Shown: piece after piece, positions 16,829-30,385 of the stretch
Layout of the letters: each line of letters opens with the position of its first letter
How positions within the stretch are numbered: position 1 is the stretch's first letter
Assembly: GCA_020725385.1 (NCBI GenBank)
Contig: DYFC01000030.1
Span: 1-47,666 of the forward strand
Reading direction: 5' to 3'
Source of the DNA: Nitrospira japonica
GTDB lineage: Bacteria > Nitrospirota > Thermodesulfovibrionia > Thermodesulfovibrionales > SM23-35
DNA length: 47,666 nt
Made by a program: the position numbers and the translations under genes
Notes under the pieces: model-generated
The model's database searches: none
What the model saw: only the letters and a program-made list of their open reading frames with translations
What the model was told of the DNA's origin: nothing

Positions 16829-17795
16829 GATTGTCTCAACAGGTGCTTATGTTCCCGAAATAATCATGTCAAATTCGGATCTTGAAAAAATGGTTGATAC
16901 ATCGGATGAATGGATAACTGAAAGAACAGGAATTAAGGAAAGAAGAATAGCATCTAAAGAACAGGCAGCTTCGGATCTTGCCTATGAAGCATCAAAAATT
17001 GCGATTGAAAGAGCAGGGATTGTACCCGAAGACATTGATCTTATTATTGTTGCTACAATTTCAGGGGATATGCCTTTCCCTTCAACCGCATGTTTTTTAC
17101 AGGAAAAACTCGGTGCAATAAATGCTGCCGGTTTTGATGTCAATGCAACATGTTCTGGCTTCCTATATGCGTTACATATTGCAGATGGATTTATAAAATC
17201 TAACCTGCATAAAAGAATTCTCGTTGTTGGTTCAGAAGCTCTATCTAAGGTAACCGATTGGGAAGACCGTACAACATGTGTTTTATTTGGTGATGGCGCT
17301 GGCGCAGTTATTGTAGAGCCATCCGCAAATGAACGGGGGATAATTTCTACCCATATAAATTCTGATGGTCGCTTATGGGAATTAATTAATCTTCCCGGAG
17401 GTGGTTCAAGAAATCCTGCTTCTACTGAAACAATAAATAAACGTCTTCACTATATTAAAATGAAAGGCAATGAAACTTTCAAAGTAGCAGTAAGAACTCT
17501 TGAAGACCTTGTTGTGAAAACCCTTGAGGAAAACAATCTTGACTCGTCACAATTGGACTTACTTATTCCTCATCAGGCAAACATGAGAATAATCCAGGCA
17601 ACGGCTGATAGACTAAAAATACCTTTAGAAAGGGTTGTTGTTAACTTGCAGCAATATGGAAATACATCGGCAGCATCAATTCCAATAGCTCTTCATGAAG
17701 CAGTGGTCTCCGACAGGATTAAAGAAGGTGATTATATTCTTCTTGAAGCTTTTGGAGGAGGTCTTACATGGGCATCGGCATTAATAAAATGGTAA
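16815..17795 (+). CDS. fabH: 3-oxoacyl-ACP synthase III (FabH)
   Basis: 326 residues with the full catalytic triad: Cys113 in NATCSGF, His253 in IPHQANMRI and Asn283 in YGNTSAASIP. It condenses acetyl-CoA (or a branched starter) with malonyl-ACP to start fatty acid synthesis. The start inside the plsX end gives the conserved N-terminus MRRSRIVSTGAYVP. In many genomes fabD, fabG, acpP and fabF come next, but here the operon ends and converges on the histidine kinase gene, overlapping it by 15 bases. Confidence 0.96.
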   Translation: MRRSRIVSTGAYVPEIIMSNSDLEKMVDTSDEWITERTGIKERRIASKEQAASDLAYEASKIAIERAGIVPEDIDLIIVATISGDMPFPSTACFLQEKLGAINAAGFDVNATCSGFLYALHIADGFIKSNLHKRILVVGSEALSKVTDWEDRTTCVLFGDGAGAVIVEPSANERGIISTHINSDGRLWELINLPGGGSRNPASTETINKRLHYIKMKGNETFKVAVRTLEDLVVKTLEENNLDSSQLDLLIPHQANMRIIQATADRLKIPLERVVVNLQQYGNTSAASIPIALHEAVVSDRIKEGDYILLEAFGGGLTWASALIKW

Positions 17796-19913
17796 AGTTT
17801 TTTTATCCAGGTCAAGCAGATTTTTTACTGTAATAAGCATCTCGTTTTTTTCGAATGGTTTTTTTAGATATGCATCTATCATTAGACCAAGCTCATGAAG
17901 AGGTTTCTCCAGGTAACCTGAAATTGCTAATATTCTGATATCTTTTCTTATTTTTCTGAGATTTATTATAACTTCTTCACCATCCATTAAAGGCATCATA
18001 ATATCTGTTATGATAAGTTGTATATTTTTGTTCTGTTCTTTGAATAAATTTATAGCATTCATAGGATTATTTTCAGCAATAACAATATAACCGTGACTCT
18101 CAAGCAAATCTTTAATGAATAAAAGAACATCTTTGTCATCATCAATTAAAAGTATATTTCCAAACCCCTGCAATATTGGCTGGGTAAATTTTTTATACTG
18201 ATATGATATTTTCCCGGAAGCAGGAATATAAATATAAAAACATGTCCCTTTGCCGACCTCGCTGTCAACAGATACATAACCATTGTGATCTTTTACTATT
18301 CCATAAACTGTTGCCAGCCCCAGTCCTGTACCTTTCCCTTTTTCTTTAGTTGTAAAAAATGGGTCGAATATCTTCTGTCTGATTTCCTCCGGTATTCCTA
18401 TGCCTGTGTCAGAAACACTCATAACCACATATTTCCCCGGCGTAACGTATGTAGGGACATCGGATGATTTATTCTCAATTATTGTAGATTTTGTTTTAAT
18501 TTCAATCAATCCTCCATCAGGCATGGCATCTTTAGCATTGACAACAAGATTCATGATTACCTGTTCTATTTGATTGGGTTCTCCTTCTATAAAAGGAATA
18601 TTTTCATCCAGATTTATTTTTACTCCAATTCTTTTATCCAGTACACCATCAAAAAGTTTTGCGGAATCGTTAATAACATCATTGAGATTAAAAGGAACTT
18701 TCTCGGTTGAATCCCTTCTTGCAAAACTGAGAAGTTTAGATACCATTATCCCGGCTTTCCGGGAAGCTCCTTCAATATTTCTGACTCTTTTCTTTGAAAC
18801 TTCATCAAGCTTGCTGTATTCAAGCAATAACTCGGAATTCCCGAGTATCGCTGTTAAAATATTATTGAAATTGTGAGCTATTCCTCCGGCAAGAGCCCCG
18901 ATAGATTCCATTTTCTGGGAATGTATAAGCTGCTCCTGTATTCTTTTCTTTTCGGTTATATCTCTGCAAAAGTGAAGTATATGAATTTTACCATCAATAT
19001 CCAGAGCCCTTGCACTTATTTCAACAAATATTTTCTCGCCATCTTTTTTGAAATGAGTTGTTTCATAAAGAAGTGTTTCGCCGTTCAAAATCCTCTGTAT
19101 GCGTTCTTCTATTTTTTCTTTATTTTCTGAAGGTTCAAGCGATTCGATATTAGCATCTTTTAATGATTTAGATTCAAAACCATATGTCTCATAAAACTTA
19201 TTATTCACTGAAGTTATTTTTCCAGTTGGATCGGTAATAATAATTGCATCAGTAGCATTATCAAAAATTGACCTGTACCATGCCTCTGAAACTTTATAAG
19301 CTTTAGTCCTTTCCTGAACAAGATCTTCAAGTTCCTGATTCTTTATTGATAACTCATATTCAAGTGAGAGTTTTTTGATGAGCAACTTTTGGTTTACATA
19401 CCTCCAACCAATACTGCCTAATAATGCTGCCAATAGAAAAATATTATTGTTAATGAAGATTCTCATGTTGGTAATAGAATCAAGTAAAATAATAGGTATT
19501 ACATAAATGGCATAAATGAACACGTTCACAAAAGCTATATATTTTGCAGATATAGGTAAGAATCCTAATATAAAAACACTAAGAATTATCATCCCTGCAT
19601 AGTATGTAGATTGATGACCACCGAAAGATAAGATCATTAATTCAATCATTACTGCTGTTATTAACGGTGCAAAAAATATTATGATTTTTTGTATTGTTTC
19701 TTTGTTATATTTTTTATACAGAAAATAAATAATAATTGTTAAAGAAGCAGCTATTAATCTATAGATTAAAAATTTTATAAAATTTTCCGGGGTTACTAAA
19801 TAATCAAGAATGCAAAGAAATATATCAATAAATGCTCCGATAAGAAGAAGAATTGCACCAAGTGATCTTGTAAGTTCATAAACTTCTTTTTTTATATACT
19901 CCTGCTTACTCAT
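17781..19913 (-). CDS. Hybrid sensor histidine kinase with membrane domain, PAS and receiver
   Basis: 710 residues. Five or six hydrophobic segments fill residues about 15-170, followed by a coiled linker and a PAS domain (about 208-325, ending [10 protein letters not shown]). The HisKA box is [16 protein letters not shown] with phospho-acceptor His347. The HATPase has the G boxes [11 protein letters not shown] and [15 protein letters not shown]-terminal receiver has LLIDDDKD and phospho-acceptor Asp637 in [11 protein letters not shown], with KKPF after it. It senses an unknown signal at the membrane. It lies 48 bases downstream of the CrtI-like gene and could be part of the lipid cassette transcript. 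No Shine-Dalgarno is visible. The 3' end overlaps fabH by 15 bases. Confidence 0.92.
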
Positions 19914-19961: not shown

Positions 19962-21374
19962 TTATCTTTTAAAATTTTTAATGATTTTTTGAGCTGTTTC
20001 ATAACCAATGTATGTCACACCAGGAATACCAAAACCATGAGTTGTCCAGTGCCCTGTCATAAAAAGACCATCTATAAATGTGTTTTTGATAAAACCTGGT
20101 AAAACAAGTTGAGAAGTTATCCCGGCCCATCCAAATGAAGCGCCCTTATAATTAGATGTATATTTAAACAATGTATATGGTGTTGCAGCTTCTTTAAATT
20201 TAATATTGTCGGATATGTTTTCAATCGATAATTTTTCTATTTTGTCTAAAAGTAGATTCATTATCACCTTTTTATTCTCGGTCCAATACATTTTATTTTT
20301 AAATGAAGCATTAATAAAAAATGTCACGCTTTTTCTGTCGGGGAAAATATGCATCATTAAATTATTTATATCATTGAAAAATCCTTTTTTAGAATTAAAA
20401 TAATTTTTATCTAAATTATAATCAAATAGATACCAAATATTAGAACCTGGTTCAAAGTAATTGCCATAAAAAGGCTCTTTTAACCCTACATATATAATAA
20501 AAACCGAAAGAGAAGGGCTCATTTTTTTAATAGTATTTAAAAAAGTTTTATCAATAAATTCTTTACCTAACAATTTTAAATATGTTTGCCTCATATCGCA
20601 ATTAGATATAACATATTTTGAAGAAACCTGTTCATTATTTAATAGTCTAATTCCTAGTGCATTTTTACCATCACAAATAATTTTATTAACTTTAGAAGAC
20701 AATAAAAGTTCACCACCATTTTCTTTAAATATTTCTACAAGAGCATTAGCTAAATTTTGCATTCCTCCTTCAGGATAATATCCGCCGTCTAAAAGAAATT
20801 CTTTGAATAATTTTAATCCTAAGAAAGCAGATAACTTTGAAGGTGGCAAGCCGCTATTGCCAAATATTGGAAAAGATAGAACACTTTTAATTTTTGATGA
20901 AGAAAAAAAAGAATCCAATATTTGTGAGAAATTGCTTTTTCTGATGCTGATAGAGATATTCTTTTCTGAATTTATTAAAAAATTAAAAAAACGTTCTATA
21001 TTATAATTTTCATTAGGAAAAGCTTCCTGAAAATTCTTAATGGTATTATTGATATCAGAATAGAAAGAAACCTGTAAATCAGGTGTAATGATAATATCTG
21101 AAGGGTCACAGTGATAAATATTTATTTTTTCCTTTATCTTTAATTCATTAAATATTTTTCCTAAAGGTCCAAAACGCATTCCACCAAATGAATGAGCTGC
21201 TGCATCAAATGTGAATTCTCCTCTTTTGAACGAAGTACAATATCCGCCGGGTTTGTTATGTTGTTCTGCGATTAGTACTTTCATGCCTGCTTTTGCGAGG
21301 TAACAGCCACAGACAAGGCCACCAATTCCTGCGCCGATAATTATTGCATCGTATTCATTTGCACTTTTTTTCAT
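19962..21374 (-). CDS. Phytoene desaturase/carotenoid isomerase-like FAD oxidoreductase
   Basis: 470 residues. The N-terminus has the FAD-binding Rossmann motif AIIIGAGIGGLVCG followed by the acidic strand end LIAEQ and GGYCTSF. The C-terminus has the second FAD block GLFMTGHWTTHGFGIPGVTY. This is the CrtI/CrtISO/RetSat-like group, which desaturates, isomerises or saturates polyene chains. No phytoene synthase or other carotenoid gene is nearby. Instead it follows an ACP gene by 1 base and belongs to the KS-FabZ-KS-ACP cassette, so an acyl or polyene chain is a more likely substrate. It is strongly AT-rich, with many Lys, Asn and Ile. Confidence 0.8.
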   Translation of the reverse strand: MKKSANEYDAIIIGAGIGGLVCGCYLAKAGMKVLIAEQHNKPGGYCTSFKRGEFTFDAAAHSFGGMRFGPLGKIFNELKIKEKINIYHCDPSDIIITPDLQVSFYSDINNTIKNFQEAFPNENYNIERFFNFLINSEKNISISIRKSNFSQILDSFFSSSKIKSVLSFPIFGNSGLPPSKLSAFLGLKLFKEFLLDGGYYPEGGMQNLANALVEIFKENGGELLLSSKVNKIICDGKNALGIRLLNNEQVSSKYVISNCDMRQTYLKLLGKEFIDKTFLNTIKKMSPSLSVFIIYVGLKEPFYGNYFEPGSNIWYLFDYNLDKNYFNSKKGFFNDINNLMMHIFPDRKSVTFFINASFKNKMYWTENKKVIMNLLLDKIEKLSIENISDNIKFKEAATPYTLFKYTSNYKGASFGWAGITSQLVLPGFIKNTFIDGLFMTGHWTTHGFGIPGVTYIGYETAQKIIKNFKR

Positions 21375-21375
21375 T

Positions 21376-21633
21376 TTAGTTTTCCTTGTGATTTAACATT
21401 CCATGAACTAATTCAACTGCATCGTTCAGGGTTACAATCTTAGGTACGTCTTCATCTCTGACCGATATTTTATATTTTTTTTCTATTGCTACAGTGATTT
21501 CTATTGCTTTGATTGAGTCTATTTCAAGTTCATTTATTAAATTCGTTTCCGGTTTTATATCTTCTAAGTCATATCCTGACACATCTGATATTATTTCTCT
21601 TATTTCGTCTTCAAGTACTTTTTTATCAACCAT
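21376..21633 (-). CDS. Acyl carrier protein
   Basis: 85 residues, acidic, with the phosphopantetheine site ELEIDSIKAIEI (Ser40). The usual DSL is DSI here, as often seen in specialised ACPs rather than the housekeeping one. The helix pattern II..VSGYDLEDIKPETNLI is classical. It would carry the growing chain for the ketosynthases at 22300-25209. The ribosome binding site AAGGGGGAAG is strong. It ends 1 base before the oxidoreductase gene. The GIY-YIG insertion separates it from the ketosynthases upstream. Confidence 0.9.
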   Translation of the reverse strand: MVDKKVLEDEIREIISDVSGYDLEDIKPETNLINELEIDSIKAIEITVAIEKKYKISVRDEDVPKIVTLNDAVELVHGMLNHKEN

Positions 21634-21723
21634 TCTTCCCCCTTATTAATTTAAAGTTTTTTAGTTCTCCTCCAATTTAGTTGCTTAAAAACTCTCTTTT
21701 AATACTCTTGCGAAAACTTCTGC

Positions 21724-21747
21724 GTCATTCCTGCGAAAGCAGGAATC
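21724..21747. repeat. GTCATTCC-type palindromic element, left copy
   Basis: ATTCCTGC-GAAA-GCAGGAAT is a perfect 8-bp stem with a 4-base loop (21727-21746), preceded by GTC and followed by CT. It is of the GTCATTCC...GGAATC class of dispersed extragenic palindromes. Its bases encode the last residues and stop codon of the GIY-YIG gene. Confidence 0.75.
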
Positions 21748-22042
21748 TAAATTCTTTACATATGGTTTTATACAAGTCTATCCAATAAGGATTATTTTTC
21801 TCAATCAATTGTAATTTCCAATCCCTTCGCCATTTCTTTATCTGTTTTTCTCTTGTAATAGCAGATTCTATAGATTCATGTATTTCATACCACACAAGTT
21901 TATGAACACCATATTTTTTGGTAAATCCTTCAACCAATCCATTTTTATGTTCATATACCCTTTTAATGATGTTAGATGTAACACCTATATACAGCGTTCC
22001 ATTGCGTTTACTGCAAAGAATATATACATAGTAGTTTTTCAT
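21725..22042 (-). CDS. GIY-YIG nuclease family protein (UPF0213-like)
   Basis: 105 residues with a single GIY-YIG domain: YYVYILCSKRNGTLYIGVT at the start, the catalytic arginine in NIIKRVYEHK, and the later ESAITREKQIKKWRRDWK block with the conserved glutamate region. Function in this small family is unclear, and a DNA nicking or mobile role is possible. It is bracketed by inverted copies of a palindromic repeat (21724-21747 and 22051-22080), and its last residues and stop are encoded by the left palindrome. It sits between the ketosynthase and ACP genes, which otherwise form one operon, and so looks like a later insertion. No ribosome binding site is visible. Confidence 0.85.
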   Translation of the reverse strand: MKNYYVYILCSKRNGTLYIGVTSNIIKRVYEHKNGLVEGFTKKYGVHKLVWYEIHESIESAITREKQIKKWRRDWKLQLIEKNNPYWIDLYKTICKEFRFLLSQE

Positions 22043-22050
22043 ATTTTTCT

Positions 22051-22080
22051 GGATTCCCGCTTAAAGACTGCGGGAATGAC
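22051..22080. repeat. GTCATTCC-type palindromic element, right copy (inverted)
   Basis: ATTCCCGC (22053-22060), a 9-base loop, then GCGGGAAT (22070-22077), followed by GAC. The outer bases GG...GAC are in the opposite orientation to the copy at 21724-21747. A further partial copy, CATTCGTTCGGAATGAC, lies around 22139-22155. The remaining sequence to 22299 has no gene that I can see. Confidence 0.7.
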
Positions 22081-22299
22081 GACTTTAACATACTTTTTTT
22101 TGTACAACGTTTATTTTAAGCTGTCTATAAGATTTCTCACATTCGTTCGGAATGACAAAAAAGTAATTATAACATCGACACTGAATCAAGTGATGACTCT
22201 TTTTTGTCATTTTCTGGCCATCTGGTTCCACCAAACAAATGGCGGACAAGCAAGCCAGAGGATAAACCTGACCGGAGAATCCAAAAAATAAACTTAAAT

Positions 22300-23511
22300 C
22301 TACTCACTATACTTTTTAAGAATAAGACAAGCATTATTTCCTCCAAAAGCGTATGAATTGTTTAAAGCAATATTAATTGTATGCTTTCTTGATTTATTCG
22401 GAACACAGTCAATATCGCATTCAGGATCAGGCGTTTCATAGTTAATTGTTGGTGGTATTTCATCATAAAATATTGCTAATGCGCATGTGACGGCTTCAAG
22501 GGCAGATGCTGCACCCATCGCATGGCCAAGCATAGATTTAATAGAACTTACAGGAATATCTTTATATCTGTCTCCAAATACTCTTTTAATAGCCAGACAT
22601 TCTGTCCTGTCATTGGCAATTGTGCCAGTGCCGTGAGCGCTTATGTAGTCAATATCTTCTTTTTTAACTCCTGAATTATTTAAGGCTTTTAACATACAAT
22701 TCTCAACACCATCAACTGAAGGAAGTGTCATGTGTCCGGCATCACAACTTAGACCATAACCTAAAACTTCTGCATAGATTCTGGCATTTCTTTTTAAGGC
22801 GGATTCAAGTTTTTCGAGTATAACAATTCCTGCACCTTCGGCAACCATCATGCCTTTTCTATTTTTATCAAAAGGCTGGCATTTCTCGGGAGCCACTGCT
22901 GAGAGTTGATTGAAACCTGTGAAGGCAACTCTTGAGAATGGATCAGAGCCACCTACAACCATAATGTCTGCTTTCCCGAGTTTAATTAGGTCAAATCCAT
23001 AGCCAATGGCATAATTTCCAGCAGAACATGCTGTACTAAACATTATTGAGGGTCCATTAAAGTAAAATAATTCTTCGATTATTGTAACAGTAGAATGAGG
23101 CGGTATTTGACATATAATTTTGTTGTCAATTTCAATATCTTTATTTATAAGAAATTCATTAATAATTTCAGTATTTTGTCCAGACCCAAGAGTTGTTCCG
23201 ATACATGTTCCAATTATAGTATTTTTATTTTCAGTGTCTATTTTTGAATCCTCGAGAGCTAGTCTTGTGGCGCACAAAGCAAACTCGGATGCACGGCTAT
23301 ATTTTTTTATATTTTCTTCAGAAAAATATTGTTCAAAACTAAAATCTTTTACCTGACCGCCGTTATGTGTAAAATGTTTTGATGTATCAAATGCAGTTAC
23401 AGAACTTATACCGGATTTTCCTGCAAGAAGGTTCTTCCAGAACTCCTGCCATCCGATACCTATTGATGAAACAACCCCTAATCCTGTTATCGCAACTCTT
23501 GTCTTATTCAT
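22300..23511 (-). CDS. Beta-ketoacyl-ACP synthase II-like (catalytically complete KS)
   Basis: 403 residues from the ATG at 23511; a GTG at 23520 would add three. The thiolase-fold catalytic set is complete: Cys162 in FSTACSAGNYAI, His293 in SAHGTGT, Lys325 and His330 in KSMLGHAMGAA. It condenses malonyl-ACP with an acyl chain. It overlaps the FabZ gene by 8 bases, so translation is coupled. The partner ketosynthase at 23977-25209 lacks both histidines, so the pair resembles the KS/chain-length-factor arrangement of type II polyketide or aryl polyene systems. Housekeeping FabF is a less likely identity, given the cassette context. Confidence 0.9.
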   Translation of the reverse strand: MNKTRVAITGLGVVSSIGIGWQEFWKNLLAGKSGISSVTAFDTSKHFTHNGGQVKDFSFEQYFSEENIKKYSRASEFALCATRLALEDSKIDTENKNTIIGTCIGTTLGSGQNTEIINEFLINKDIEIDNKIICQIPPHSTVTIIEELFYFNGPSIMFSTACSAGNYAIGYGFDLIKLGKADIMVVGGSDPFSRVAFTGFNQLSAVAPEKCQPFDKNRKGMMVAEGAGIVILEKLESALKRNARIYAEVLGYGLSCDAGHMTLPSVDGVENCMLKALNNSGVKKEDIDYISAHGTGTIANDRTECLAIKRVFGDRYKDIPVSSIKSMLGHAMGAASALEAVTCALAIFYDEIPPTINYETPDPECDIDCVPNKSRKHTINIALNNSYAFGGNNACLILKKYSE

Positions 23512-23941
23512 CTTGAACACTGAAAACTAATTCAGCCTCCGATACTTTTTTGTCTTCTACAAATGCTTCTCCTGATACAAAAGCTCCATTGGGAAGGGAT
23601 TTAACATTAACTACTTTAATCTTAATCTGATCACCCGGAACAACAGGATGATGAAACCGTGCTTTAACAGAGCCAAATAGATATATTTGTGGTTTCTCAT
23701 TTGGATTTTCTTTTGCTGATGCAAAAAGAATTATGGATGCCTGTGCCATTGCTTCAATAATAGCAGCACCGGGCATAATCGCTCTATCAGGGAAATGGCC
23801 TAAAAAGAAAATATCATTTCCCGATATGTTTTTGATTGCCACTGCGGATTTCCCGGGTTCAAGTTCAATAACTTTATCAATCATAATAAACGGAAATCTT
23901 TGGGGCAATATTTTCTTGATTTCTTCAAAACTCATTATCAT
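23504..23941 (-). CDS. 3-hydroxyacyl-ACP dehydratase, FabZ-like
   Basis: 145 residues, a complete hot-dog fold. The catalytic residues are His49 (FLGHFPDRAIMPG) and Glu63 (IIEAMAQAS), the standard FabZ pair. It dehydrates 3-hydroxyacyl-ACP to trans-2-enoyl-ACP, forming double bonds that could remain in a polyene. The ATG at 23941 has GGAGAG eight bases upstream and is preferred over the second ATG two codons later. It lies between the two ketosynthases and overlaps the downstream one. No ketoreductase is present in the cassette, so that step would have to come from the housekeeping FabG. Confidence 0.9.
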   Translation of the reverse strand: MIMSFEEIKKILPQRFPFIMIDKVIELEPGKSAVAIKNISGNDIFFLGHFPDRAIMPGAAIIEAMAQASIILFASAKENPNEKPQIYLFGSVKARFHHPVVPGDQIKIKVVNVKSLPNGAFVSGEAFVEDKKVSEAELVFSVQDE

Positions 23942-23976
23942 TTAATACTCTCCATATTTATAATCTTTTATTTTGC

Positions 23977-25209
23977 TCATGCATATTTGCTTATAATCAA
24001 TGCTGAATTATTACCATAAAAATCAGAAGACAATATAAGGATGTTTTTCAATTCTTTCTTCCTTGTCCCTTCTATAACATAATCAAGGTCACATTCAGGG
24101 TCTTTCTCTTTATAATTAACAGTCTGAGGAATCACACCATAATTCAAGGCTTCAATAGCAGAAGCACAGGCAAGTGCTCCACCGGCAGAATATGTCTCAC
24201 CGAGCATTGATTTTACCGCTGTTACTGGAATTTTATCTGCGTGTTCACCAAAAACTTTTTTTATAACATTTGTTTCAAGCAGGTCAAGCTCTTTTGAAGA
24301 ATTTGCGGATGAAAATATACAGTCTATGTCTTTCAAATCAAGACAGGCATCTTTAAGAGAAATTCTGATAGCATTTTCAAGCCCTTTTCCGCTGCATTTG
24401 AAATAACCTTCAGATGTATAATCAAAAGCATTTGCATATCCGGAAATATATCCAAGAATAGATGCATTTCTTCTTATTGCATGTTTTTCTTCTTCAAGAG
24501 CAATAACAGCAGAGCCTTCAGAAAAAATTATTCCATCCCTTCTTGCGTCGAAAGGACAACATCTTGTATCAGTTCCGTTACTTCCGGATAAACATCCGAA
24601 TGTGTGTAGTATTAAGAATGTATCCTCGCAAAGTTCTTCAACTGCTCCTGCAAAAACAATATCCGCTCTTGCCATACGAATAAAATCCGAAGCGTATGAA
24701 ATAGCATCTATTCCGGAGCAGCACCCTGTTGATATTGTTGTATTAAAACCCTTGATTTTGAACCGTATAGAAATTCTGCTTGCCGGTGAATTAATTACAG
24801 TATTTGGGAAAAAAGAAGGATTAACGTATCTTGGCCCGTCAATCAAACTTGCTCTATCAAATTCTGCTATGCTTTTTAAGCTTCCGAAGGTTGTACCAAT
24901 CGAAACGCCGATAGAATGTGTATTATCCTCTGTTATATTTATCTTGCTGTCATCAATAGCAAGTTTTGCAGCAGAGCAAACCAGTCTTGTGCTTCTATCC
25001 AATTCTCGCAGTCCCTTTTTTTCCAAAAAATTCAAAGGGTCAAAATCAGTTATTTCGCCTCCAATTTTAACAGGATACTTTGAAACATCAAACAACGTGA
25101 TTGGTTTAAAACAAGTTTTACCCTGAAAAAATGCATCCCGAAAAGTATTTCTTCCAATTCCAATTGGCGACAAAACACCTGTACCTGTAATTACAGCTTT
25201 TCTATTCAT
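23977..25209 (-). CDS. Degenerate beta-ketoacyl synthase (chain-length-factor-like)
   Basis: 410 residues, colinear with the neighbouring ketosynthase along its whole length. The active-site cysteine is kept (Cys163 in STGCCSG) and so is Lys333, but the two catalytic histidines are replaced. The SAHGTGT region reads FSSANSSK (His to Ser301), and the second His is Glu338 in KSMLGETY. Such a protein should not decarboxylate malonyl-ACP alone and is probably a structural or chain-length partner of KS 22300-23511. Classical chain-length factors instead lose the cysteine, so this is a different pattern. It starts 1 base after the PilZ-methyltransferase stop. Confidence 0.85.
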   Translation of the reverse strand: MNRKAVITGTGVLSPIGIGRNTFRDAFFQGKTCFKPITLFDVSKYPVKIGGEITDFDPLNFLEKKGLRELDRSTRLVCSAAKLAIDDSKINITEDNTHSIGVSIGTTFGSLKSIAEFDRASLIDGPRYVNPSFFPNTVINSPASRISIRFKIKGFNTTISTGCCSGIDAISYASDFIRMARADIVFAGAVEELCEDTFLILHTFGCLSGSNGTDTRCCPFDARRDGIIFSEGSAVIALEEEKHAIRRNASILGYISGYANAFDYTSEGYFKCSGKGLENAIRISLKDACLDLKDIDCIFSSANSSKELDLLETNVIKKVFGEHADKIPVTAVKSMLGETYSAGGALACASAIEALNYGVIPQTVNYKEKDPECDLDYVIEGTRKKELKNILILSSDFYGNNSALIISKYA

Positions 25210-25210
25210 G

Positions 25211-26491
25211 TTATTTCTTTATCAGATAAAAAACTATTAAACCTGTTTTTTCACGTTGTTCGGAAATTTGGTTTAATGGTATATTCGCTTTTGTAAAAAT
25301 ATCAACAAAATCCTCTTCTGTTCTCTGAAGGAATCCGTCCCAGTCAACAATCCAGTGATATTCCTGAGAACGATAGCGCATAGAATCTTTAAAGGATGTT
25401 ATCAGAACACCTCCTGGATTTAATAACTCATATAAAGCACTAAATAATTTCACCAGAAATTCTGATTCAAGATAATCAAATAATCCGACACTGTAAATTA
25501 TATCCTGTTTTCCAAATTCAGCCATATTTAGTTCATTATCAAACATTCTTATTGCATTATATTTTCTGAGAACTACCTGGTTTGAAAAAACAGGATTTAA
25601 ATTTGTGAATGAAAGTCTATTTGCTGCAAATGCGAGTGCATCATCATCAAGGTCTATGCATGTAATTTTTGTTCCGGACTTTTCAATTAAGCTTGAAAGT
25701 TCAAATACTTCACGACATGAGCCGCAAGCTATATTTAAAACTTTGGGTTTTTGTCTTTGGGATATTTCTTCTTTCAGAATATTCTTAAGCTCATTTAATC
25801 TATTTCTAACACCTGTACCGAGCGGCCATCCAAGACAATATAAGTCAAGATAATATCCGAACCCTTTTGATAAAGGTGTGTTTCGGTATATTGTCTCAAG
25901 AGTCTTATAATCTCCCTGATACCCTTGAGGCCATATTCTTGCTCTATTAATACAAAAGCTTTTTGAGAAGATTTTATTTGTTTTCTGGTGAAATCTTACT
26001 CTTGCATCCTTAATTATTTCTTCATCATTAACTGCAATCTCAAATAACCTGCAAGAATTTAGTACATCATTAAATGCATCTTCAATAGATGCCATTATAT
26101 CTTCTGGTTTTTCATTAGGATTATCACAACGCTTTTCAATTTCTTCAAGTCTCTTTATGAATATATCTGTAGCTTCATCAAGTTGTCTGATATTTTTCCC
26201 GTCAAGTTCAATGCCTGCCCTGTATCTGTCATTGTAACGAGCCGACCATCTAACAAATCCAGCAGTTTTATCAAAACCATTTTTGAACCAGAGCATATGT
26301 CCGGGTGTTAATGGATATTCTGTTTCTATACAAATGCCTGCTTCACTAATATTTAATGCTTTACCATTTAAGTCAATCCATTTGCGTTTTCTGTCTTCTT
26401 TTACGCTTAAAGAATAAGCAATAACTTCTGTAAAAGGTTTTCTCTCGAATCTTCTTAATTTCTCATATTGCATAGTTTTTGCATTCTGCAT
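25211..26491 (-). CDS. PilZ domain fused to class I SAM methyltransferase
   Basis: 426 residues. Residues about 11-115 form a PilZ domain with both c-di-GMP motifs, R13xxxR17 (RRFER) and NISEAG (47-52). A helical linker (about 130-245) leads to a Rossmann methyltransferase, with motif I VLNIACGSCREVFEL (251-265), acidic Asp280 at the end of strand 2, and SVGLFDYL further on. Related methyltransferases include PhcB-type makers of hydroxy-fatty-acid methyl esters, so an acyl substrate is plausible but unproven. It is the first gene of the KS2-fabZ-KS1 run, directly abutting KS2. The ribosome binding site GGGGGTAGAGAG is good. c-di-GMP control of activity is inferred from the domain. Confidence 0.85.
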   Translation of the reverse strand: MQNAKTMQYEKLRRFERKPFTEVIAYSLSVKEDRKRKWIDLNGKALNISEAGICIETEYPLTPGHMLWFKNGFDKTAGFVRWSARYNDRYRAGIELDGKNIRQLDEATDIFIKRLEEIEKRCDNPNEKPEDIMASIEDAFNDVLNSCRLFEIAVNDEEIIKDARVRFHQKTNKIFSKSFCINRARIWPQGYQGDYKTLETIYRNTPLSKGFGYYLDLYCLGWPLGTGVRNRLNELKNILKEEISQRQKPKVLNIACGSCREVFELSSLIEKSGTKITCIDLDDDALAFAANRLSFTNLNPVFSNQVVLRKYNAIRMFDNELNMAEFGKQDIIYSVGLFDYLESEFLVKLFSALYELLNPGGVLITSFKDSMRYRSQEYHWIVDWDGFLQRTEEDFVDIFTKANIPLNQISEQREKTGLIVFYLIKK

Positions 26492-26594: not shown

Positions 26595-27272
26595 TTATTT
26601 ATGAATTGAATATTTTTTAAATATTTTTTCTATTTTATCTTTATAGGCTAATGAAAAAAGTATAAAAACAATAGCGACACCAAGCAATATTGAAAACCTA
26701 TAATATTGGTGATGACGAATATAATCACCTCCTAATGTTAAAAGAACTGTTCCAAGAAATCTTCCTACGGTACTTATTATAAGAAATTCTTTTGTGCTTA
26801 AATGTCCGAGTCCGAGTATATAACAAAGGTAATCTTTTGGAAAACCCGGAATTAAAAAAAGAAGAAAAACAAGAAATGCTCCTTTATGGTGCAAAAGATA
26901 ATCGTAACGGTCAAGGGTTTCTTTTTTTACAAAGCGCTCTACAAAAGGTCTTCCAAGATGTCTTGATAGAGTAAAAGCTATCCATGAACCAATTGTAAGG
27001 CCTAAGGTTGATAAGAATATGCCAAGAAAAGTTCCATAAAGGAAACCTCCCATAAATCCGGTTACTTCACCGGGTATTGGAGAGATTATTACCTGGGAAG
27101 CTTGAAGAAGTACAAAACCAATAAAAGAAAGCGGTCCTAATGATTCAAGAAATGCTTTAATCTTTTCTTTACTAAGAAAAAAAGATATTAAACCAGTCTG
27201 ATATAAAATAAGTGTTGAACCTGCTACAATTGTAATCAGGATAAGTAATTTAAGCCATATCCTGTTTTTCAA
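26595..27272 (-). CDS. TVP38/TMEM64 (DedA-like) membrane protein
   Basis: 225 residues with about five or six hydrophobic segments. The family core is visible as ISPIPGEVTGFMGGFLYGT and, later, FLVFLLFLIPGFPKDYLCYILG, the reentrant-loop PG motifs of the SNARE-associated (DedA/VTT) domain. Relatives scramble or flip lipids or maintain the proton motive force. The start is TTG at 27272, with a stop codon immediately upstream in frame and GGAGG 13 bases upstream, so the spacing is unusually long. It follows the slipin gene by 22 bases on the same strand. Confidence 0.88.
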   Translation of the reverse strand: MKNRIWLKLLILITIVAGSTLILYQTGLISFFLSKEKIKAFLESLGPLSFIGFVLLQASQVIISPIPGEVTGFMGGFLYGTFLGIFLSTLGLTIGSWIAFTLSRHLGRPFVERFVKKETLDRYDYLLHHKGAFLVFLLFLIPGFPKDYLCYILGLGHLSTKEFLIISTVGRFLGTVLLTLGGDYIRHHQYYRFSILLGVAIVFILFSLAYKDKIEKIFKKYSIHK

Positions 27273-27294
27273 TTATTTTCGTACACCTCCGCTT

Positions 27295-28065
27295 TTAATC
27301 TTTTTTAGCCATCTCTATAAAAGGTTTTATCAGGTCTATCGGAACAGGGAAAATAATAGTTGAATTCTTTTCAGTAGCAATTTCTGTTAATGTCTGTAGA
27401 AATCTTAATTGGAGAGCTGATGGAGCGGTTGCGATTATATTTGCTGCTTCTGTTAATTTTTGTGATGCCTGAAACTCACCTTCTGCATGAATAATTTTTG
27501 CTCTTCTTTCACGTTCTGCTTCTGCCTGTTTTGCTATCGCTCTTAACATTTCAGCAGGTAAATCAACATTCTTGATTTCAACTGCAGTAACTTTAACTCC
27601 CCATGGTTCTGTCTGAAAATCTATTACCTTCTGGAGTTCAGCATTTATTTCTTCTCTTTTTGTTAAAAGGTCATCAAGCTGGCTTTGTCCGAGAATACTC
27701 CTTAGTGTTGTTTGTGCGATCTGGGATGTTGCAAAGTAATAATCTTCAACCTCTGTTATTGCTTTTATCGGGTCCATAACTCTGAAATATACAACAGCAT
27801 TTACTTTAACTGAAATATTATCTTTTGTAATAACATCCTGTGCAGGCACATCCATAGTTACTGTACGAAGGCTAACCTTTACTAATTTATCAACAACAGG
27901 AAGGATTATTACAAGTCCGGGACCTTTTACAGGTATAATTCTTCCGAGTCTGAAAACAACTCCTCTTTCATATTCCCTCAAAATTCTTATTGCACTTGAA
28001 AGAAAGTATACTATCAGGAATATAACAAAAATAAATCCCATGAATGATGGTGCAAATATTGACAT
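27295..28065 (-). CDS. Slipin (SPFH/stomatin-like membrane protein)
   Basis: 256 residues. One N-terminal membrane helix (about 8-27) is followed by the SPFH domain, opening [15 protein letters not shown] and including [20 protein letters not shown], then the Ala/Glu-rich helix [19 protein letters not shown]. Slipins form membrane microdomain scaffolds and are paired with NfeD-type proteases, as here, where nfeD ends 1 base before this gene starts. The complex probably acts in membrane quality control. Confidence 0.95.
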
Positions 28066-28066
28066 A

Positions 28067-29386
28067 TCAGCCTCCTTGTTTGCGGACTTTTAATTTTAGT
28101 CCCGAGACAAATTCTACTATAATTCGCTCTCCTTTTGCTATTGGTTCGTCAGAATAAGCTGACCAGATTTCTCCGTGAACCAATACTCTACCTGTATCTT
28201 TTGTTATATCAGTTTCCGCTGTCCCAATTAAACCTTTAAGTCCCTCGGACCCTGTAACAGGTTTTTGCTTTTGAGCTTTATAAGATAATCCTATTATAAT
28301 AGTGAAAAAAACTGCGGTAGCGATGACCGAAGGAAGAATAATTGCAAGAGAAAGTTTCATAAATGGTGCAGGTGATTCAAAAAGCATGAGCGAACCTATA
28401 AACATGGAAATGATTCCTCCAATTGTTAAAACACCATGTGAAACAATTTTGATTTCAAGAAGAAAGAATATGATTGCAAGTATAATCAGAAGAACGCCTG
28501 CGTAATTTACAGGCAATGTCTGGAATGAGTAAAAAGCAAGTATCAAACATATTCCACCTAAAACTCCCGGAAAGATGGAACCGGGATTTGTAAGCTCAAA
28601 GAAAAGTCCGTAAAAACCAAGAAGCATTAAAATATAAGCCACATTTGGATCTGATATTAAATTTAAAATCTTATGACGCAGTCCCGCTTCTTCTCTGATA
28701 ACAATAGAATTTTTTGTCTGAAGAATCTTATCTCCGGAGATTGTTTTTACTTTTTTTCCATCAATATCATTTAGTAAAGTATTTAAATCTTTTGCAACAA
28801 TATCTATAACATTTAGTTTTAGGGCATCAACTTCTGTTGATGAGATACTTTTCCTAACAGCATCTTCTGCCCATTTTACGTTCCTGCCTCTCTGCTCGGC
28901 AATGGATTTTATGTAAGCAACAGCATCATTGGTAGCTTTTTCAGCCATTGTTTTGTCCATTTTATCACCAATACCTACAGGATGGGCAGCTCCAATATTT
29001 GTTCCTGGAGACATTGCAGCTATATGTGCTGCGATTGTTATAAAAGCTCCAGCAGATGCAGCTCTGCTCCCGCTTGGAGAAACATATACAACTATAGGTA
29101 CTCTACTATTAATTATTTCTTTAACTATTGTTCTCATGCTTGCATCGAGACCACCTGGTGTGTCAAGCTCGATAACAAATGCTTCCAAATTTTTATCATT
29201 GGCTTTTTTAATGCTTTTTTGTATGAATTCAGCAGATACAGGATTTATCACACCACTGATAGTTATAACCATAACCTCTCTGTTAACTTTGTCTGAATTT
29301 GCGCTCAATAGATAAGGAAAAGCAAAAAAACAGACGATTGGTATTAACAGAGTAAATTTAAATATATAATTGAAATTCCTGCTCAT
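28067..29386 (-). CDS. NfeD-family membrane serine protease (long form)
   Basis: 439 residues. A signal peptide or anchor (10-30) is followed by a ClpP-like domain with [11 protein letters not shown] and the nucleophile Ser111 in [12 protein letters not shown]; the Lys partner is probably in [12 protein letters not shown]. Then come four or five membrane helices (about 245-375) and a C-terminal OB-fold NfeD domain beginning [10 protein letters not shown]. The long form is known to cut stomatin C-termini in archaea. It is tightly coupled with the slipin gene. The protease domain should face the periplasm. Confidence 0.94.
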
Positions 29387-29452
29387 TTATTTTTCTTTAA
29401 TTTCAAATTATAGTAATGATTAAGAATTATTGCAACGGATAAAATTTATTTT

Positions 29453-30385
29453 CTAATCTTCCAGAAGTTCTTTTATTGTTGTATAAACTGATTTACTTAG
29501 TGAATCGAGATCATAGCCGCCTTCGAGAACAAAAACATAAGGCATTGAAGGCAGATATGTTGTGGTGGAACGCAAGAGTATTCCCCTGATTATATTTCTC
29601 ATGCCTTCGTGCGTGATATGTATATTAGATAAAGGGTCTGCTGCATTTATATCATATCCTGCTGAAACAAGCATAATATCGGGTCTGAAGTTTTTTATGA
29701 GTCGTGGAAGAATATCACGGTAAACATAATAGTAATCTTTATCACCGGAGCCTGCATGCATTGCGACATTATAAGTTGTGCCTTCACCTTTTCCCTTGCC
29801 CCTTTCTGTGTCCCTTCCTGTGCCCGGATAATGGGGAAACTGGTGGGTGCTGAAGTAGAAAACTGTTTCGTCTTCTTCAAATATATGCTGGGTGCCGTTG
29901 CCATGATGAACGTCAAAATCTATTATAAAGACTTTTTTATAACCAAGTTTCTGAGCGTATCTTGCACCAATAGCAACATTATTAAATATGCAAAAACCCA
30001 TTGCCCTGTGTGCTTCAGCATGGTGTCCGGGGGGTCTTACAGCGCAAAAAGCTCTATCAATATCTCCTTTTTTACATAAGTCTATTGCTTTTACAACTGC
30101 ACCTGAAGCGTAATGAGCAACTTCAAAGGAGTGTTCCGATATATAAGTATCAGAATCAAAATATCCTCTAAAATTTTTTAAGGTATCATAATAAGATTTT
30201 GTGTGAACCGCAAGAATGTCTTCTTCATTTGCTTTTTCCGGTTTAATATGAATGAGCTTTTCCCATACATCAGAATTTCTGAGAGTTTCAACAATCCGGA
30301 CAAGTCTCTGTGATGATTCAGGGTGTCCTGAAGGCATTTCGTGCTTTAAAAAAATATCATCGTATATAAATCCAACTCTTTTCAT
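29453..30385 (-). CDS. Histone deacetylase/AcuC-family deacetylase
   Basis: 310 residues with the arginase-like deacetylase fold signature: [11 protein letters not shown] (tandem catalytic histidines), [11 protein letters not shown] (zinc-binding Asp and His) and a later [13 protein letters not shown] block supplying the second Asp ligand, ending EGGYDL. It likely removes acyl groups from proteins or small amines such as polyamines or acetoin-related metabolites. The ATG (AACACATG) has no Shine-Dalgarno. A long inverted repeat lies between it and the fhs stop, so it may have its own start or depend on read-through. Confidence 0.92.

Follow-up and report, generated by a model that had tools for sequence, protein, structure and literature searches.

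An operon of Nitrospirota that joins an anammox-type acyl synthase to a methyltransferase and a hybrid histidine kinase: a possible lipid-signalling system

Introduction

The diffusible signal factor (DSF) system is RpfF-RpfC-RpfG. Highly reducing type II polyketide synthases (PKS) are represented by the ishigamide pair Iga11-Iga12, which we take to be PDB 6kxd, and by cispentacin AmcF-AmcG; a CrtI-like enzyme, a methyltransferase (MT) and a histidine kinase (HK) are, to our knowledge, not part of these clusters. In Ralstonia, an operon with a MT and a kinase makes and senses acyl methyl esters (PMC11960443, PMC6989110). The anammox genes kuste3603-3608 form the set acyl carrier protein (ACP), FabZ, two ketosynthases (KS2 and KS1), CrtI and a radical S-adenosylmethionine (SAM) enzyme (PMC4790861); their product is open, and no anammox bacterium is in pure culture (PMC2649909). 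The present study concerns a stretch of 47,666 nt from Nitrospira japonica (assembly GCA_020725385.1, contig DYFC01000030.1, positions 1 to 47,666; hereafter the window), in which a minus-strand operon of eight open reading frames (ORFs) combines counterparts of five of the six kuste3603-3608 genes with a MT and a membrane-bound hybrid HK.

Pairs of a KS and a chain-length factor (CLF) in Nitrospirae and Planctomycetes are not new as such, since both are among the KS-CLF hits of a type II PKS catalogue (PMC10132072). The string 'Nitrospir' occurs in the accessible text of neither of two anammox-gene papers (Rattray et al., PMC2649909; Javidpour et al.), and 'histidine kinase' does not occur in that of Rattray et al. 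Among the entries listed in literature searches, no title or abstract opening dealt with the combination of acyl module, MT and HK, subscription papers and preprints lying outside their scope. A rearranged module outside anammox bacteria, without the radical SAM enzyme and tied to signalling genes, could help to tell the common-core reactions from the ladderane-specific ones.

The ketosynthase pair

The initial annotation of the window described a degenerate and a complete KS, and the catalytic residues bear this out. KS1 (23977-25209, minus strand as all operon genes) is a degenerate, CLF-like KS in which both catalytic histidines are replaced (His298 by Ser, His333 by Glu) and Cys163 is kept. 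KS2 (22300-23520) is complete, with a Cys-His-His triad that is intact in 21 of 21 aligned rows. Among 29 KS1 rows Phe163 is found in 26, Glu333 in 27 and His298 in none; this residue table and the Nitrospirota KS groups of the larger tree below left out ORFs shorter than 381 amino acids (aa) and the loci L056, L119 and L127. The window KS1 is the only one of the 29 rows with Cys163, and L056, which belongs to the same genus and lies outside the 29, carries Cys163 as well.

Both proteins have their best PDB match in the same entry. KS1 matches 9s5h_C with 366 bits (the next match has 261), and KS2 matches 9s5h_B with 480 bits, followed by 6kxd with 348. In the alignment, 9s5h_C shows Val163, Asn298, Tyr300, Gly302, Lys328, Glu333, Gln342 and Arg392, and the same eight residues are listed for Kuste3606 by Rattray et al. 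(PMC2649909); the residue table gave all of them but Gln342. From this agreement and the placement of 9s5h inside the planctomycete clade we infer that 9s5h is a Kuenenia-type pair, with 9s5h_C corresponding to kuste3606. The window KS1 shares with kuste3606 the loss of catalytic histidine, the retained Lys328 and Glu333, whereas residue 163 is mostly Phe in Nitrospirota KS1s (Cys in the window) and Val in kuste3606.

Two trees were compared, one of 109 rows, in which the KSs of L119 and L127 were entered as 'other', and one of 74 rows, made of every third row of the four groups of the former plus a second Nitrospirota lineage. In the 109-row tree a single clade (98, starred) holds the KS1s of Nitrospirota and planctomycetes, and another holds the KS2s of both (87, not starred; 97, starred, together with 6kxd, which has no resolved place in the 74-row tree). 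In the 74-row tree the KS1s of the window lineage are sister to the planctomycete KS1s (97/84, starred) inside a KS1 clade of 100/99 (starred), whereas for its KS2s the sister group is the second lineage (97/95, starred), and the planctomycete sequences follow (92/83, not starred). Judged from these trees, kinship with the planctomycete pair appears firm for KS1 and moderate for KS2. An ordinary FabF pair was considered and rejected: both KS clades stand apart from FabF, and the genome's own FabF (L135) falls in another clade. The grouping with housekeeping FabF, which the initial annotation held to be damaging to its proposal, was thus found in neither tree, and this separation, along with the conserved gene order described below, supports its view of a dedicated lipid- or polyketide-type cassette.

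The pair also resembles the highly reducing type II PKS in its logic of a KS with an inactive partner, FabG, FabZ and ACP, and 6kxd is the second-best PDB match of KS2; the scores fall under the cut-offs curated for cispentacin.

Distribution of KS1 and the anammox module

At E<=1e-106, a KS1 profile matched 47 of the 395 Nitrospirota genomes scanned, of which 32 score at least 595 bits, 10 lie at 509-541 and 5 do not exceed 378. It also matched 33 of 392 Planctomycetota genomes, 32 of which scored 469-496 bits, with a gap down to 376. Of 395 genomes from the phylum to which G066 (titled Desulfuromonadaceae) belongs, 4 matched, at 360-363 bits. Three of these four KS1s are placed beside the KS1 clade in the trees and have the residues typical of it; hence the family extends past two phyla. 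The hydrazine synthase alpha family PF18582 was matched in 25 of the 33 KS1-bearing planctomycete genomes against 3 of 21 comparison genomes. As it occurs in the latter and is missing from eight of the former, the KS1-bearing genomes are only likely to be anammox bacteria. The genome G061 (titled Planctomycetaceae; that of locus L102) holds 23 PF18582 stretches in ORFs of varied length but lacks a KS1 match at E<=1e-106.

Each of the 20 planctomycete loci that were fetched has the order ACP-FabZ-KS2-KS1-CrtI, which is that of kuste3603-3607 (in L173, KS2 and CrtI are broken over several frames, and in L166 the contig ends inside CrtI). A radical-SAM-type gene resembling the one of L165 follows CrtI in 19 of them, and in the twentieth the contig ends first. 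Window and planctomycete proteins are 43-49% identical for KS1, 34-55% for KS2 (broken gene included), 47-53% for FabZ, 32-45% for CrtI and, in 18 of the 20 loci, 31-37% for ACP. As in kuste3603-3608, genes for ACP, FabZ, FabF, a non-canonical FabF and a CrtI-like protein stand together in the window, and the KS clades are shared. In contrast, the window module is rearranged and has no kuste3608-like radical SAM enzyme, and a MT (often with PilZ), a HK and, in relatives, FabG are added. In the 33 KS1-bearing planctomycete genomes, the MT is absent but for four weak matches. The initial annotation had regarded the match to ladderane genes as only partial; the relationship it saw is real, but with five of six genes and a KS pair inside the anammox clades the link is stronger than it held.

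The methyltransferase and histidine kinase as core

The MT (25211-26491) consists of a PilZ domain (about residues 12-103) and a class I SAM-dependent methyltransferase domain (about 100-426), as seen in domain searches and in an AlphaFold2 model (pLDDT 92.4) that begins with a series of strands. The top structural match of the MT is 3ocj, a Bordetella parapertussis protein of unknown function (Z 22.0 over 245 residues), with which the SgvM C-methyltransferases tie (Z 21.8). The MT reaches no NCBIfam cut-off, and Pfam gives generic methyltransferase domains only. The anammox methyltransferase AmxMT1 (PMC9821293) is not among the structure matches listed, which is uninformative. The last operon gene is the hybrid HK (17781-19913, 710 aa), with an N-terminal membrane region followed by PAS, HisKA, HATPase and receiver domains. 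Its hydropathy profile has four hydrophobic stretches near the N-terminus; some of them could hold two helices, which makes about six transmembrane segments by eye. The phosphoacceptor His is present in 29 of 29 rows and the receiver Asp in 26, the other three lacking the region; G98, G99, S102 and Y104 of the sensor are invariant in these rows, and a weak MASE8 match to the sensor was seen in 8 of the 29.

A search of 61 genomes found MT matches at E<=0.001 in 43 (own genome included), many covering PilZ only, and 23 listed places at 276 bits or more. An alignment scan of named genomes with the MT gave 119 relatives, the best 80 of which were kept and yielded 78 loci. These are mostly from Nitrospirota, some from records titled Deltaproteobacteria, Thermodesulfobacteriota or Aquificota, and then from Planctomycetota and Omnitrophota. 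The same gene order had been proposed as worth seeking in related genomes, and it is conserved: across relatives it reads MT, (FabG), KS1, (FabZ), KS2, ACP, CrtI, HK, and in the window family MT-KS1-FabZ-KS2-ACP-CrtI-HK. Among 13 full cassettes KS1 and KS2 are present in all 13, ACP in 12, CrtI in 11, FabG in 9 and FabZ in 7. Strong KS1 was found in 16 relatives (own genome included) and strong KS2 in 13; in the other three (G001, G013 and G055) the contig ends inside KS2. At L093 (6.2 kb) MT-FabG-KS1 stand alone, and the genome G026 has the split-off half KS2-ACP-CrtI-HK on another contig.

The HK is a steady partner of the MT, and the gene set of the initial annotation had omitted it. It ends 12 of 12 cassettes that are readable for at least 7 kb past the MT, or 13 of 13 with L116, where the MT is cut by the contig end; in the L079 cassette it is split over two frames. 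In 58 loci with the MT at 380 bits or more, the MT is followed by FabG or KS1 in 32 and directly by the HK in 18 (19 counting L107, where only an HK-like frame start is seen). Six of the remaining loci end less than 1 kb past the MT, and L111 (Pirellulaceae, 9.9 kb readable) has neither cassette nor HK. Since the MT adjoins the same HK in 16 of the 17 loci that lack the acyl genes and are readable for at least 2.5 kb, the HK being the very next gene, MT-HK is the core of the system. The description of the cassette as led by a methyltransferase is right as to position, but the MT belongs with the HK, occurs with it without the acyl genes and is missing from the anammox version. Near the MT of two planctomycete loci (L102, 1971-8213; L109, 1684-7677) lies a frame of about 2000 aa, which in L102 carries Ser/Thr kinase, AAA, TPR, GAF, HisKA, HATPase and receiver domains.

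A second Nitrospirota lineage and Omnitrophota

Nine of the ten Nitrospirota genomes with KS1 at 509-541 bits were fetched (loci L193-L201 and L213-L216), and their KS1s form a clade of their own in the 74-row tree. The module reads FabG-KS1-(ACP)-FabZ-KS2-(KS3)-(CrtI), and the gene after it encodes a seven-transmembrane (7TM) kinase with the sensor PF16927 in six of six readable loci (L194, L195, L198, L199/L214, L201 and L196). In all four loci that were followed further, a GAF/PAS kinase comes next and then a protein with a receiver (REC) and a HD-GYP domain, with HDxGK, HHE and GYP motifs. The MT was not found in the fetched stretches of this lineage.

In Omnitrophota, L119 has the order 7TM-HK, receiver-KS fusion, ACP, weak MT-like gene (93 bits, no Pfam match), HK, receiver, MT, and a PlsC-like acyltransferase lies near this version. 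The fusion KSs fall outside the KS2 clade in both trees, which suggests that acyl genes and such kinases have been joined more than once. The fusion itself (L119, 3755-5425, equal to L217, 8339-10009) joins a receiver to a ketosynthase within a single open frame, and its operon also encodes two 7TM kinases, an ACP and two MT-like proteins; among 193 genomes it was found at full length in one more, and once with an internal stop.

Possible function

The gene architecture supports a KS/CLF-like acyl synthase that is accompanied by a redox enzyme for tailoring, by a methyltransferase and by a sensor kinase. We tentatively favour, at a little short of an even chance, an operon for the synthesis and modification of, and the response to, a special acyl molecule, that is, lipid signalling. 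This preference is based on the Ralstonia analogy and on the fact that acyl genes, kinases and c-di-GMP (cyclic di-GMP) parts meet with different kinases in different lineages. We infer every reaction, the identity of the product and its sensing by the HK as follows. KS2 and the inactive KS1 would act as a KS/CLF pair and elongate the chain by malonyl units on the dedicated ACP, with keto reduction by FabG, which is in the operon in relatives and would act in trans in the window genome. FabZ would remove water, leaving an acyl-ACP that is unsaturated or polyenoic and that may be isomerised or desaturated by the CrtI-like flavoenzyme. The MT might methylate the acyl product, either bound to the ACP or released from it, and c-di-GMP may gate this step by way of PilZ; a membrane-embedded product could be sensed by the membrane domain of the HK. 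As a whole, the operon would encode two-component signalling by a lipid, in the manner of PhcB-PhcS or RpfF-RpfC-RpfG, and would bring along a highly reducing type II acyl synthase of its own. If this is true, lipid-based communication would here be linked to c-di-GMP; nothing of the kind was listed for this operon in the literature searches.

Like PhcB-PhcS-PhcR of Ralstonia, the operon has a methyltransferase gene together with a membrane HK, and an acyl substrate is plausible. It differs in adding an acyl synthase, PilZ and CrtI, and the likeness is one of gene arrangement; in a plasmid search for PhcB, none of the 31 records matched carried that annotation. A counterpart of PhcA or PhcR does not adjoin the window operon, no search having been aimed at them. 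Likewise, the second lineage resembles the DSF system in pairing acyl synthesis with a membrane kinase and a REC-HD-GYP output, whereas no RpfF crotonase was seen in the operon, which has a type II KS module instead, and the window operon is without a HD-GYP gene. A wider proposal, that Nitrospirota possess a new class of lipid signalling with an in-operon, highly reducing type II synthase akin to the anammox module, a c-di-GMP-controlled PilZ-MT and a membrane hybrid kinase, with 7TM/HD-GYP wiring in a sister lineage and receiver-KS fusions in Omnitrophota, is more doubtful.

Several observations weigh against lipid signalling. The anammox version has neither the MT nor an adjoining HK of the window type, so the acyl module itself needs no signalling. 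As the MT sits with the HK where KS and ACP genes are missing, it may methylate another substrate. The HK sensors show no clear split between cassette and short loci (mean identity 0.41 within cassettes, 0.45 within short loci and 0.37 between them), and hence a cassette-specific ligand is not supported; the HK could simply regulate the operon. Some of the contigs labelled had also contributed, through the relatives used, to the gene-labelling profiles, which inflates label scores, though not adjacency. Finally, PilZ was matched at E<=0.001 in 26 of 52 MTs, window included.

In the window, PilZ scores 20.7 bits, just below the Pfam cut-off of 22.5, and both motifs are present, RxxxR and NISEAG. 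Since RxxxR and D/NxSxxG are, as we understand them, the c-di-GMP motifs of PilZ receptors, the domain fits the pattern of a predicted c-di-GMP receptor. The c-di-GMP lead of the initial annotation was sound as to a PilZ in the MT, but did not hold as the heart of the system: PilZ is optional, and as the defining link it was rejected.

The alternative that comes nearest to lipid signalling is a structural membrane-lipid pathway, in which an unusual acyl chain would enter membrane lipids while the HK senses the state of the membrane and controls the operon. It is possible, though doubtful. The planctomycete genomes, mostly anammox-like, hold the same five genes without the MT as ladderane-lipid candidates, membrane-protein genes (NfeD, SPFH, VTT) lie upstream in the window family, and the acyltransferase near the Omnitrophota version would suit it. 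However, the MT-HK pair persists without the acyl genes, and the window HK has its own receiver and is adjoined by no DNA-binding regulator, the next gene being FabH.

It is improbable that the operon makes a pigment or a polyene secondary metabolite akin to aryl polyenes or carotenoids. A KS/CLF-like pair with FabZ, ACP, a CrtI-like enzyme and, in relatives, FabG would be in keeping with it, as would the grouping of KS2 with the 6kxd KS in the 109-row tree, which the 74-row tree leaves without resolution. Yet domains of phytoene synthase, AMP ligase and glycosyltransferase are missing among the eight operon ORFs. The PDB entry 7f27 is ApeR of an aryl polyene cluster (PMC8358021); it scores far below the 9s5h chains for KS1 and KS2 (191 bits against 480 for 9s5h_B in the case of KS2), ApeO-ApeC having been outside the tree. 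CrtI reaches 138 bits against TIGR02734, with a cut-off of 238, and 70 bits against the phytoene dehydrogenase 4dgk, and no lycopene was formed in E. coli by two CrtI-like proteins of anammox bacteria (PMC4790861). A carotenoid desaturase was rejected, as CrtI is far under the family cut-offs and has no second match in the genome; this agrees with the earlier exclusion of an ordinary carotenoid cluster.

A ladderane (cyclobutane) lipid pathway outside anammox bacteria is hardly credible and a ladderane product unlikely, despite the five shared genes and the KS pair in planctomycete clades, because the counterpart of the kuste3608 radical SAM enzyme, so regular behind CrtI in planctomycetes, is missing from the genome (no kuste3608-like B12/radical-SAM match at E<=1e-20 in it or in the same-genus G001, and at most 41% identity in other relatives), and D. 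psychrophila has shown no ladderane despite similar clusters (PMC2649909).

Remaining features of the operon

The seven genes first reported were described as lying on one strand, mostly abutting or overlapping, and an ORF check, the gaps and domain searches agree with this and with the domains named. From the MT to CrtI the successive gaps are 1, 35, -17, 257, 91 and 1 nt. The cassette does not end at CrtI, where the coordinates first reported stop, but continues after 48 nt with the HK, which is conserved with it. The FabZ-type 3-hydroxyacyl-ACP dehydratase (23504-23941) has its best PDB matches in 8ayd and 7qv0. The ACP (21376-21633) was identified by its phosphopantetheine-binding domain, with a DSI motif seen by eye, and the CrtI-like FAD enzyme (19962-21374) by a domain match; the latter is the sole CrtI match in the host genome of 2.46 Mb. 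The reported absence of a ketoreductase is correct for the window but not for its relatives, 9 of 13 full cassettes having FabG in the operon. Upstream on the same strand (26595-30385) are VTT, SPFH, NfeD and deacetylase-like genes, which are kept beside the MT in many genomes of the window family.

The GIY-YIG endonuclease-like gene between KS2 and ACP (21725-22042, by domain match) is probably a passenger. As a functional part it was rejected, since none of the 25 loci of the neighbourhood survey has a GIY-YIG match (not all of them reach the KS2-ACP junction) and other ORFs occur at other junctions. Mobile-element ends were not found around it, the sole inverted repeat being 16 nt at 88%. 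The extra ORFs at differing operon junctions are seen in L032, L034, L035 and L041 and include, with names given by eye, endonuclease-like, methyltransferase-like and small nucleotidyltransferase-like genes, among others.

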